Of a stretch of DNA of 38,084 nt, positions 1,084 to 9,946 are shown one piece after another. A model generated the notes under the pieces. That model was given only the letters and a program-made list of their open reading frames with translations. It was not told where the DNA came from and made no database searches. The translations under genes and the position numbers were made by a program. The stretch comes from Azospirillum sp. (GTDB lineage Bacteria; Pseudomonadota; Alphaproteobacteria; CACIAM-22H2), in assembly GCA_020249045.1 (NCBI GenBank), contig JADCGK010000247.1, forward strand, positions 1 to 38,084, given 5' to 3'. The stretch's first letter is position 1; each line of letters opens with the position of its first letter.

Positions 1084-1728
1084 TCAAGGGGCGGCAGCGA
1101 GGGCCGTGCCGATCATGCTGTCGCGCCCGACGAGGCCGGCGAGGCGCTCCTCGCTCCAGCCTTCCGTTCCCGACGGGCGCATGGGAACCACCAAATAGCG
1201 CATGTCGGCCGTGGAATCGACCACGCGGATTTCGACGCCGTCGGGCAGAACCGTGCCGAACTCGGCCAGCACTTTGCGCGGCTCCTTCACCGCGCGGGCG
1301 CGATAGGCGCTCGATTTGTACCAGGCCGGCGGCACGCCAAGGATCGCCTTGGGATAGCACGAGCATAGCGTGCACACGACCATGTGATGGCGCGCGGGCG
1401 TGTTCTCGAGCGCCACGACCGTGGCGGTGTTGGAGGTGTCGACGCCAAGCTCGCCGGCGGCCGCCTTGGCGTCCGCCAGCAGGCGCCGTTTGTAGTCCGG
1501 ATCGACCCAGGCGCGCGCGACGATCCGCGCGCCCATCGCGGGGCTGCGGCTGTCCATCAGTTCGATCTGTTTGCGGATGTCCTCGGCCGTGAACACGCCC
1601 TTTGCGATCAGCAGTTCGCGCACTGCGCGCTCCAGACGGGCGTATTCGGGCCGCGGTTCGGCCGCATGCAGCGGATCGTGGGCGTGGTCGTGCGTGTGGA
1701 CGTGATCGCCGTGATGCGCGCCGCTCAT
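1084..1728 (-). CDS. nthA: Nitrile hydratase (cobalt-type) alpha subunit
   Basis: 214-residue catalytic subunit of a nitrile hydratase-family enzyme, which hydrates nitriles to amides (or thiocyanate, in the related thiocyanate hydrolase). The metal claw VCTLCSC is at about residues 118-124 (Cys119, Cys122, Ser123, Cys124). Threonine after the first Cys is the form known from cobalt enzymes; iron enzymes have serine. The family signature RYLVVPMRPSGTEGW is at about 177-191. The N-terminus (about residues 5-21) is unusually rich in His and Asp, a possible metal-handling tail. The ATG overlaps the stop of the upstream beta-C gene by 4 bases (1725-1728). No separate activator (P14K/NhlE type) or CobW/P47K gene is visible nearby. 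The true substrate cannot be told from sequence. Confidence 0.93.
   Translation of the reverse strand: MSGAHHGDHVHTHDHAHDPLHAAEPRPEYARLERAVRELLIAKGVFTAEDIRKQIELMDSRSPAMGARIVARAWVDPDYKRRLLADAKAAAGELGVDTSNTATVVALENTPARHHMVVCTLCSCYPKAILGVPPAWYKSSAYRARAVKEPRKVLAEFGTVLPDGVEIRVVDSTADMRYLVVPMRPSGTEGWSEERLAGLVGRDSMIGTALAAAP

Positions 1729-6258: not shown

Positions 6259-6262
<4 letters not shown>
5924..6262 (-). CDS. Small unknown protein coupled to rimO
   Basis: 112 residues beginning at a GTG at 6262-6260 that overlaps the rimO stop codon (GTGA). The sequence starts [13 protein letters not shown] and ends [10 protein letters not shown]. It is mostly helical and basic, with the pattern [27 protein letters not shown] in its first half (given here by position, about residues 27-50). 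No family is recognised. The overlap with rimO suggests translational coupling, so a role linked to RimO or ribosome modification is possible but is inference. The same frame is open far upstream as an antisense shadow of rimO; the GTG is the only start with a sensible context. Confidence 0.6.
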
Positions 6263-7629
<1,367 letters not shown>

Positions 7630-7771
7630 GTCCGCGACGTATAAAGATTCCCGCATCGGCTGGCCAGCGAGGGGTTAGGGCGTGCGGTATCTCGGCCCGT
7701 CGAGCTCTTGACGGTGCGGGGCTGGCGCCCCACGTGGCCATTTGACGCTTTTTTTCCCGAGGGGTCCGACG

Positions 7772-8098
7772 ATGCGCTTCCCCGAACTCCGGTTTTTGGC
7801 GTTCCTCGCCCGCCATTTGGGGCTGGGTGTGTTCGTCGGTTGGGCGATTTTGGCGGGATTGCTGTGGCTGGACGTCGCCCGGCTGGCGACATTGATCGGG
7901 GCGTCGTCGCATGCGTTCGAGGCCGTGGCGATGCTGGCGGTCTTTTTCGCGGCGACCTTCGGCGGCGCGGCGATGGGAAGTGCCATCATGGGATTGGCGG
8001 AATCCGACGACGACGGCTCGTCGAACGATCGCGGTTTGCGGCGGGTCCGGCTTGCGCGGCGAAGCGACGGCCGCGTGGTCCAAATCACCAGCGACTGA
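7772..8098 (+). CDS. Small two-helix membrane protein, unknown
   Basis: 108 residues from the ATG at 7772 (MRFPELRFLAF), preceded by a purine-rich site (gagggg at about 7759-7764). An upstream in-frame start at 7742 is less likely. Two hydrophobic segments are visible: about residues 8-35 (ending in GWAILAGLLWLDVARL) and about 48-75 (rich in Ala, Gly and Phe). A polar, basic tail follows, ending GRVVQITSD. No family is recognised. It lies convergent to the methyltransferase-like gene. The hairpin array at 8103-8282 begins 5 bases after its stop. Confidence 0.6.
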   Translation: MRFPELRFLAFLARHLGLGVFVGWAILAGLLWLDVARLATLIGASSHAFEAVAMLAVFFAATFGGAAMGSAIMGLAESDDDGSSNDRGLRRVRLARRSDGRVVQITSD

Positions 8099-8102
8099 TT
8101 CG

Positions 8103-8119
8103 TTTTCCGAACCGGAAAA
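8103..8119. repeat. Hairpin next to the G-loop array
   Basis: A 7-bp perfect stem TTTTCCG / CGGAAAA with loop AAC sits 5 bases after the stop of the small membrane protein gene. It is the leftmost of a series of hairpins in this convergent intergenic region. Unlike the next three it has no G-run loop. The T-rich left arm could help end transcription arriving from the right. Confidence 0.6.
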
Positions 8120-8124
8120 TGAAA

Positions 8125-8221
8125 GGCCCCGGCGCGGGGGGGGGGGTGCGCCGGGGCCGAAGGCAATCCGATCGGGGGGGTGATCGGATTACACGGGGTC
8201 GAGCGGGGGGGGTGCTCGACC
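8125..8221. repeat. Tandem array of three perfect hairpins with G-run loops
   Basis: Three consecutive perfect inverted repeats with unrelated stems but the same loop type. Hairpin 1: an 11-bp stem (8125-8135 with 8148-8158) around eleven G plus T. Hairpin 2: a 9-bp stem AATCCGATC/GATCGGATT (8165-8173, 8182-8190) around seven G plus T. Hairpin 3: an 8-bp stem GGTCGAGC/GCTCGACC (8197-8204, 8214-8221) around eight G plus T. The linkers between hairpins are exactly 6 bases each (gaaggc and acacgg). Read on the minus strand, the loops are A followed by C-runs, and hairpin 1 is then followed by TTTCATTTT, which resembles an intrinsic terminator for the minus-strand gene ending at 8298. The function is unknown. 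Confidence 0.85.
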
Positions 8222-8222
8222 A

Positions 8223-8242
8223 CGATCCGAGATATTGGATCG
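8223..8242. repeat. Hairpin following the G-loop array
   Basis: A 6-bp perfect stem CGATCC/GGATCG around the loop GAGATATT, one base after the last G-loop hairpin. It continues the series of structured elements in the convergent gap but lacks the G-run loop. Confidence 0.5.
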
Positions 8243-8266
8243 CAAAACGGATCTGCAAGAGCCTCC

Positions 8267-8282
8267 CTCAAAAATTTTTGAG
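8267..8282. repeat. 16-bp perfect palindrome
   Basis: CTCAAAAATTTTTGAG is a perfect palindrome with A5T5 at its centre, 15 bases beyond the stop of the minus-strand methyltransferase-like gene. As RNA it would give only a weak, tight hairpin. As DNA it is a bent A-tract site that could bind a dimeric protein. Its role is unknown. Confidence 0.5.
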
Positions 8283-8297
8283 TCGCTCGGTAGGGTA

Positions 8298-9329
8298 TTA
8301 TACGCCGTTTTTATGTGCTTCGAAGATGCCCCATCCAGGGGCTGTGTCGCGCGTGCCCAAGCGCGAAATGAACAACGGCGAACCGTATATTTCCCAAACC
8401 TTTTTGCACGCCTCGAACGACATCGACCCGTCCCCGCCCCAGACCATGAAGTGCGCGCCGCGCGGCAGATGGCGCAAGGCGGCATCCACGCGCTTGACCC
8501 AGAAATCCAGATGGGTTTCCCGGCTGCGCGACAGCGGCAGCCAGCGATTGGCCATCAACGAGTGCACGAGCTGGTCGTCGATCGTGTACTCGTCGAGGCC
8601 GCGGGTGGGCGGGTTGACGGCGACGAAACAGGGCACGCGCGGGCGCAAGGTCTTCGCCAGATCCTTCATGTCGCCCAGATGCAGGGCGAAGCGGCGCGGG
8701 CCCAGCGCGTCGATCGCGGCATTCAGATCGCGCACCAGGGCGCGCAGGATCTTGCGCGGGTTGGCCGCGCGCGCGAGGTACGGCCTCCAATCCACGTCGC
8801 GGATCGTGCGCAGCTGCGCGGGATCGTGGGTGTAGAGGATCTCGAACCCATCGACCATCGACGGCGCGAAGCCCAACGCCCAGCGCACGGCGAGGTATCG
8901 CAAGCCCGCCCGCTCGGCGGCGGGGGCGTCGGCATGATAAAGGCGATCGAAAACATCGCAGACCGGCGCCGTCAGATAGTCGCAGGCGAAATGGAAGGTC
9001 GGCACGTGCGGGCGAAGGCGCGGTCGCTTCGCGGTCAGCAGTGCCTCGACGCGCGCGGGATCGATTTTGCGGCCGCCGAACAGGAAGGCGGCGGCGAGAT
9101 GCGAGCGCGGTGCGGCGTCGTTGACGGTTACGCGGGCGGCGCCGGCGGCGGCGAACGCCATCGGCATCAGGCACGAGCCCGACGTGTAGTCGAACATTTC
9201 GATTTCGTCCCAGCGCGCGCGCGGCACGATCCGCGCGTAGGCGTCGAGGATCGCGGGCACGTAGGGCGCGATGGTTCCGTCGAGCGGCAGCATCGCCTTT
9301 TCGAGAGCGGTGTAGGGAATGGGCTTCAT
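8298..9329 (-). CDS. SAM-dependent methyltransferase-like protein (distant DNA adenine methylase resemblance)
   Basis: 343 residues starting MKPIPYTALEKAML. A glycine/alanine-rich segment FDYTSGSCLMPMAFAAAG (about residues 47-64) followed by VTVNDAAPRSHLAA resembles the SAM-binding motif and the ND-containing segment of D12-class adenine methylases. Much later VAVNPPTRGLDEYT occupies the place of the (D/N)PPY catalytic motif, but the aromatic residue is replaced by Thr. The C-terminal part has HFMVWGGDGSM. Assignment to the SAM-methyltransferase fold is plausible; activity on DNA is uncertain because of NPPT. Its ATG overlaps the rhomboid stop (ATGA, 9326-9329), so the two are translationally coupled. 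No restriction partner is nearby. Confidence 0.6.
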   Translation of the reverse strand: MKPIPYTALEKAMLPLDGTIAPYVPAILDAYARIVPRARWDEIEMFDYTSGSCLMPMAFAAAGAARVTVNDAAPRSHLAAAFLFGGRKIDPARVEALLTAKRPRLRPHVPTFHFACDYLTAPVCDVFDRLYHADAPAAERAGLRYLAVRWALGFAPSMVDGFEILYTHDPAQLRTIRDVDWRPYLARAANPRKILRALVRDLNAAIDALGPRRFALHLGDMKDLAKTLRPRVPCFVAVNPPTRGLDEYTIDDQLVHSLMANRWLPLSRSRETHLDFWVKRVDAALRHLPRGAHFMVWGGDGSMSFEACKKVWEIYGSPLFISRLGTRDTAPGWGIFEAHKNGV

Positions 9330-9946
9330 GACGATCGCCTGACGAAAACCTGGAAGAGCACGAGCCCCGCGACGAACCCGCCGATATGCGCGACCCACGC
9401 AACGCGCGCGCCGCCGGCCGAGTCGAGCCCGATCAAATCGGGCAGCGTGAACGCGAGGATCCACAATGCGGCGAGATAGACGAGCGGTTGGCCGCCCATA
9501 TGGCCGCGTTCGCGCAGCACCAGCAGCGCCCCCGCCATCAAGCCCGAGATCGCCCCCGACGCGCCGATGACCGGATCGACCGAGTCCGGATAGACCGCGT
9601 AATGCGCGCCCGCCGCCACGAGCCCGCACAGGAAAAACAGCGACAGCGTCGTGGCGCCGCCCACGCGCCGTTCGACGCCCGATCCGAACGCCGCCAACGT
9701 CACGAGATTGACGGCCAGATGCATCCAATCGCCGTGCAGGAACAGGTACGAGAACGGGGCGACGAAAGCGGGCCAGCCGAATCCCGCGCCCCCCGAGTAG
9801 CGCGCGGGCACGAAGCCGAACGCGTCGTAGACGAGCCACAACGCGTCCGACATCAGCAGCCGCAGCAGCGCGTACGCGCCGAACGTTAGCGCGATGAGGC
9901 CGAGCGTGACCGGCGGCACGTTGATCGCGGGTTGGGAAGCGCGCAT
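9326..9946 (-). CDS. Rhomboid family intramembrane serine protease
   Basis: 206-residue polytopic membrane protease. The catalytic motif GASGAISG places the nucleophile at about Ser130 and the partner at about His187 (AHIGGFVAG). The conserved HxxxN of helix 2 is at His76/Asn80 (WMHLAVN). About six hydrophobic segments are visible. The substrate is unknown; rhomboids cleave membrane protein helices. The start ATG at 9946 has the promoter-like pair TTGTCT/TATAAG upstream. A longer reading across 9326-12622 in the same frame is an antisense shadow of kup. It is followed by the methyltransferase-like gene with a 4-base overlap. Confidence 0.92.
   Translation of the reverse strand: MRASQPAINVPPVTLGLIALTFGAYALLRLLMSDALWLVYDAFGFVPARYSGGAGFGWPAFVAPFSYLFLHGDWMHLAVNLVTLAAFGSGVERRVGGATTLSLFFLCGLVAAGAHYAVYPDSVDPVIGASGAISGLMAGALLVLRERGHMGGQPLVYLAALWILAFTLPDLIGLDSAGGARVAWVAHIGGFVAGLVLFQVFVRRSS

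Follow-up and report, generated by a model that had tools for sequence, protein, structure and literature searches.

The window, i.e. the whole stretch of 38,084 nucleotides analysed here, originates from a draft MAG of 3.87 Mb in 255 contigs. Three adjacent perfect hairpins, whose plus-strand loops consist of a G run followed by T, are located between two convergent genes, a 118-aa ORF on the plus strand and an uncharacterised gene on the minus strand, hereafter gene X (Table 1). The hairpins, their 6-nt linkers and the convergent setting had been reported in an earlier note and were all recovered. The methyltransferase-like neighbour mentioned there is present as well, but presumably encodes RimO, a methylthiotransferase, and lies about 0.5 kb from the hairpins. 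The flanking 16-bp palindrome and short inverted repeats were recovered too, although their palindromic character is not kept in the relatives; the palindrome CTCAAAAATTTTTGAG could possibly be an UP element or a regulator site. Gene X has no match in Pfam, NCBIfam or PDB; it is conserved in the genus and in some sister genera, and is close to a KUP potassium transporter gene. The 118-aa ORF, without a family match, looks like a small membrane protein.

Table 1. Features of the hairpin array and its surroundings (coordinates in the window)
Feature	Position	Strand	Remarks
Methyltransferase-like gene, presumably RimO	6259-7656	-	Beyond the hairpins
118-aa ORF	7742-8098	+	In G001 and G010, homologues adjoin the array
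Predicted sRNA transcript, about 110 nt	8112-8226	-	Ends approximate; fold z -8.6; RF02344 match 8120-8230
Terminator tail TTTCATTTTCC	8114-8124	-	T-rich tail in 8 of 10 copies
Hairpin 1 (3' hairpin on the minus strand; stem of the Rho-independent terminator)	8125-8158	-	GGCCCCGGCGC - ACCCCCCCCCCC - GCGCCGGGGCC; perfect 11-bp stem; plus-strand loop G11T
Hairpin 2 (middle)	8165-8190	-	AATCCGATC - ACCCCCCC - GATCGGATT; perfect 9-bp stem; plus-strand loop G7T; compensatory changes AU/UA/GC and CG/UA
Hairpin 3 (5' hairpin on the minus strand)	8197-8221	-	GGTCGAGC - ACCCCCCCC - GCTCGACC; perfect 8-bp stem; plus-strand loop G8T; equivalent in relatives has a different stem
Linkers between hairpins	8159-8164 and 8191-8196		6 nt each
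-10 element CAATAT	8232-8237	-	16 nt after CTTGCA; AT-rich -10 at conserved distance in relatives, strength varies
-35 element CTTGCA	8254-8259	-	CTTG invariant here in 10 of 10 genus members
16-bp palindrome CTCAAAAATTTTTGAG	8268-8283		Just upstream of the -35; A/T-rich stretch kept in several relatives
Gene X, 513-aa uncharacterised protein	8298-9839	-	The sRNA always adjoins its 3' end

When a qualifying hairpin is defined as a perfect stem of at least 8 bp around a G or C run of at least 6, three are present in the window, all within about 75 bp, versus 0.16 per window in 200 first-order Markov copies. The RNA of the minus strand folds at -59.8 kcal/mol, versus -32.7 +/- 3.2 for shuffled sequences (z -8.6). 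The exact lengths of the G runs are those of a single draft assembly, and the runs of the relatives differ. The possibility of a repeat family within the genome was rejected, as the other GGGGGGGT sites fetched from it are not in arrays of this kind. The sole other G-run-loop hairpin of this sort among these loci is a single 6-bp hairpin with loop GGAGGGGGGGGT (L005, about 1490-1514, minus strand), which adjoins a strong terminator-like hairpin.

The genus is represented here by 11 genomes (Tagaea-like Rhodospirillales MAGs), and the array is found 3' of gene X in 10 of them; the remaining one, G009, has a completeness of 86% and is devoid of gene X as well. The region beside the 3' end of gene X was located by DNA search in seven relatives, to which reading of the flanks added G005 and G008. 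A covariance model, R1, recovers the same number of genus genomes with E values between 1e-16 and 1e-30, and yields no match of similar strength elsewhere; since R1 was built from the ten copies themselves, the informative part of this search is the absence outside the genus. One convincing copy of the array is present in the genome of the window. Weak second matches to R1 within the genus (L071, L072, L073 and L076) have no hairpin array with C loops and were attributed to chance or to ordinary terminators. No array follows the homologues of gene X in sister genera. On its other side, the hairpin unit is flanked by the 118-aa ORF, RimO or another gene according to the genome, and it is considered to be linked to gene X because only the gene X side is constant. 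A real, conserved, unannotated sRNA gene is well supported.

Each of the ten copies folds into three successive hairpins whose stems change in a compensatory manner. In the middle and 3' hairpins, five base pairs are changed on both sides with pairing kept, the cells changed on both sides amount to 17 versus a shuffled mean of 5.5, and 97% of the cells are paired versus 32-47% when the partners are slid. Two pairs of the 3' hairpin display compensatory GC to AU changes, and all its cells are paired in the 10 sequences. As the 3' arm of the 5' hairpin could not be aligned with certainty, these counts cover the other two hairpins; compared by hand, the 5' stem also differs between clades and pairing is kept, with one C-A mismatch in G001, G006 and G010. 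The minus-strand loops stay C-rich, with runs of C4 to C11 often flanked by A or U. The terminal loop is reduced to 4 in G001, G006 and G010. In the two divergent members, G007 and G008, the middle loop of the former has lost its C run and the 5' loop of the latter is not C-rich. The earlier note had suggested a structured RNA with drifting stems and retained loops, to be doubted if relatives carried no covarying copies; such copies exist in 10 genomes, so that this doubt falls and the suggestion stands.

When the minus strand is read, the hairpins are preceded by a sigma70-like promoter, CTTGCA-N16-CAATAT. The CTTG(C/T) motif occupies a fixed place in all ten copies and is followed 16-17 nt later by an A/T-rich -10. 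The pattern CTTGCN-N16-C.ATAT is observed in G000, G001, G006 and G010, the -10 being CTATAT in G010, and G002-G005 form a group with a weak -10. At the other end, the 3' hairpin is followed in the window by the T-rich TTTCATTTT on the same strand, as in a Rho-independent terminator; a terminator-like match at this tail is not significant by itself. Among the non-Watson-Crick pairs of the middle and 3' hairpins, the minus-strand reading yields 15 G-U cells, 9 of which belong to one helix-closing pair, and no A-C cells, which would be plus-strand wobbles; the 5' hairpin is neutral in this respect (3 U-G versus 3 C-A). The minus strand is taken as the transcribed one because the promoter, the T-rich tail and most of the wobble pairs sit there. 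The predicted transcript would use the promoter at about 8259-8232, start near 8225 and end near 8112, and the three hairpins very probably constitute an unannotated sRNA with its own promoter and terminator.

The same layout may be read differently, as the 3' UTR of gene X with its terminator, a stable 3' end that would possibly be processed into an sRNA but would have no promoter or trans role of its own. The array is always directly 3' of gene X on the same strand, its last hairpin is a terminator and no other obvious terminator of gene X precedes it; moreover, sRNAs derived from 3' UTRs are common. This explanation is nevertheless considered unlikely, given the -35-like CTTGC and the -10-like element held at fixed spacing between the gene X stop codon and the first hairpin, and given that termination by itself would not call for two additional conserved hairpins with C loops.

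The preferred reading is a trans-acting minus-strand sRNA with its own sigma70-type promoter, the C loops of which serve as anti-Shine-Dalgarno (anti-SD) seeds. This is judged probable from the architecture described above, which is read directly in the sequence, as is the resemblance to alpha-r14 described below; transcription, SD binding and the identity of the silenced genes are what we infer. The proposed mechanism can be summarized as follows. Transcription of the minus strand would begin at the promoter between gene X and the hairpins and would produce an RNA of about 110 nt in which three hairpins fold independently, the last of them serving as the Rho-independent terminator. A C run would be exposed in every loop, and the C loops would act as interchangeable or redundant seeds for the G-rich ribosome-binding sites of several mRNAs, the translation of which would be blocked by the pairing, as in NfeR1/alpha-r14. 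The stems would only present the loops, and compensatory changes could thus accumulate in them, the loops remaining rich in C. The pairing of minus-strand C-rich loops with SD sequences, already suggested in the earlier note, gains support in this form, the pairing itself being deduced.

The closest known RNA is alpha-r14/NfeR1 (RF02344, ar14; SmelA075). It is described as an Hfq-independent RNA of 123 nt with three hairpins, each carrying the anti-SD motif CCUCCUCCC in its loop on highly different stems, and its redundant anti-SD seeds silence ntrB by covering its ribosome-binding site (PMC10746234). SmelA075, SmelA099 and a Rhodobacter sRNA have been described in the same terms (PMC3927594). 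The candidate sRNA shares with alpha-r14 the three hairpins, the third being a Rho-independent terminator, a loop motif common to the hairpins, stems differing strongly between hairpins and between species, and a length of about 110-123 nt. The CTT-type -35 and the C-ATAT -10 seen in part of the copies may also correspond to the alpha-r14 promoter, which is given as CTTAGAC-N17-CTATAT (PMC10746234). In a permissive cmscan of 271 bases, the minus strand at 8120-8230 matches the RF02344 model over its full length with 41.6 bits (E 1.2e-6), below the gathering cut-off of 58.8 bits, and five relatives score 36-44 bits. None of 289 genomes sampled across the class passes this cut-off, arrays with true CCUCCUCCC loops included (56.9 for L035), so that falling short of it says little, on its own, against kinship. 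The absence of CCUCCUCCC is a stronger objection: it occurs in none of the ten copies, the loops of the window being C runs, and CCTCC occurs in only three. Unlike alpha-r14, the candidate sRNA adjoins gene X, in a Rhodospirillales genus. The cuckoo/CcsR RNAs (Rhodobacter RSs0680a) and SmelA099 are likewise modular, with variable stems and anti-SD loops, and are thought to block ribosome-binding sites. Cuckoo RNAs often come as several tandem copies and are linked to DUF1127 genes (PMC10253847), whereas a single convincing copy, with a different loop motif, was found in the genome of the window, and the flanking genes tested have no match to a DUF1127 family. The array is thus likely an alpha-r14/cuckoo-like anti-SD sRNA whose loops are homopolymers of C. 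It represents a variant within a known kind of RNA rather than a certified family member, since the RF02344 score is below the cut-off and the CCUCCUCCC loop is absent. The earlier statement that no named family has such loops has to be revised, as alpha-r14/NfeR1 and the cuckoo RNAs share the plan.

Two other families with C-rich loops were also matched. 6C RNA (RF01066), known from actinobacteria, consists of two hairpins with runs of at least six C in the loops, and its model matches the middle and 3' hairpins of the window with 37.1 bits for a cut-off of 47; one orthologue (L029) reaches 47.5 and two others 39.6-45.7. The sX13 family (RF02232) of Xanthomonadaceae yields a sub-threshold match on the same span (25.5 bits versus a cut-off of 50), and 37.5 bits in the scan of the orthologues. 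Weak matches to both models are what any hairpins with C runs in their loops would yield, and the 6C resemblance is probably convergent. An sRNA of this 6C/sX13-like shape might nevertheless not act on SD sequences at all, and might instead bind a protein or serve as the sponge of another sRNA. The loops made of C runs rather than CCUCC and the 6C score at the cut-off in L029 are in keeping with this explanation, which we regard as rather unlikely: the 6C model covers two hairpins and its match omits the 5' one, and the model covering all three in most relatives is ar14.

Sites of the kind that the putative anti-SD sRNA could bind are present in its own genome, where GGGGGG occurs 71 times 4-9 nt before ATG versus 19 times for the reversed pattern. 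About half of the sites inspected precede open frames of at least 95 codons, and some precede genes whose translations, by reading, look like transporter components. The enrichment is equally strong in relatives and class members without the sRNA, so these sites do not point to this sRNA; they make the anti-SD mechanism possible without being evidence of its use, and the enrichment was dropped as an argument for targeting. A several-fold excess over the reversed pattern is observed in nearly all the alphaproteobacterial genomes tested (G000-G050).

If the preferred reading holds, the anti-SD plan of alpha-r14 and cuckoo RNAs would extend to a Rhodospirillales genus unseen at the Rfam cut-off, and the loop motif of such sRNAs could be a plain C run, which suggests that loop sequence makes the definition of the curated alphaproteobacterial family too narrow. 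The locus would also provide a small, complete sRNA gene where loop and stem sequence can be tested separately.

The variation of the C runs themselves has been considered as a possible function. Replication slippage would alter the loop length, from C4 to C11, while the covarying stems and the terminator are kept, so that the affinity of each hairpin for G-rich ribosome-binding sites would be tuned or phase-varied; this is regarded as quite improbable. The plus strand could alternatively be the functional one, by means of RNA or DNA quadruplexes or a protein or single-stranded DNA recognition array, both raised in the earlier note, or by attenuation of the 118-aa ORF transcript. Three long G runs do lie within about 75 bp, and the array is just 3' of this ORF, homologues of which adjoin it in G001 and G010. 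The left neighbour is not conserved, however, and neither a promoter nor a T-tract is present on the plus strand; the G-U cells favour the minus strand, the terminal loop is only 4 in G001, G006 and G010, and the plus-strand fold is less extreme (z -4.5 versus -8.6). On the promoter, terminator, wobble-pair and neighbour evidence, a plus-strand function was rejected as very improbable. An assembly or sequencing artefact, conceivable with long homopolymers in a draft MAG, has a negligible probability, as the independent assemblies of ten species share the architecture, the place and the compensating stem changes, and only the exact run lengths could be wrong.

A few related observations were made around the array and in other genomes. 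In G001 and G010 (L012 and L010), the terminator hairpin occurs twice, together with its ATGAA..CCCCGGCGC context, as if duplicated, the second copy lying 3' of the sRNA, between it and the 118-aa ORF homologue. Other sub-threshold ar14-like RNAs are found at different loci of sister genera (L078, G016:C179; L080, G013:C34); with C-rich loops (CTCCCCCCCCCTG and CTCCTCCCTCT, respectively) and terminator-like ends, they are possibly independent C-loop sRNAs. Adjacent ar14-like units are located in one stretch of G272:C5 (L142 and L146), and those of G044:C1 (L035 and L046), with CTCCTCCTCCCTGG in their loops, form a cuckoo-like cluster in tandem, with scores slightly under the Rfam cut-off.
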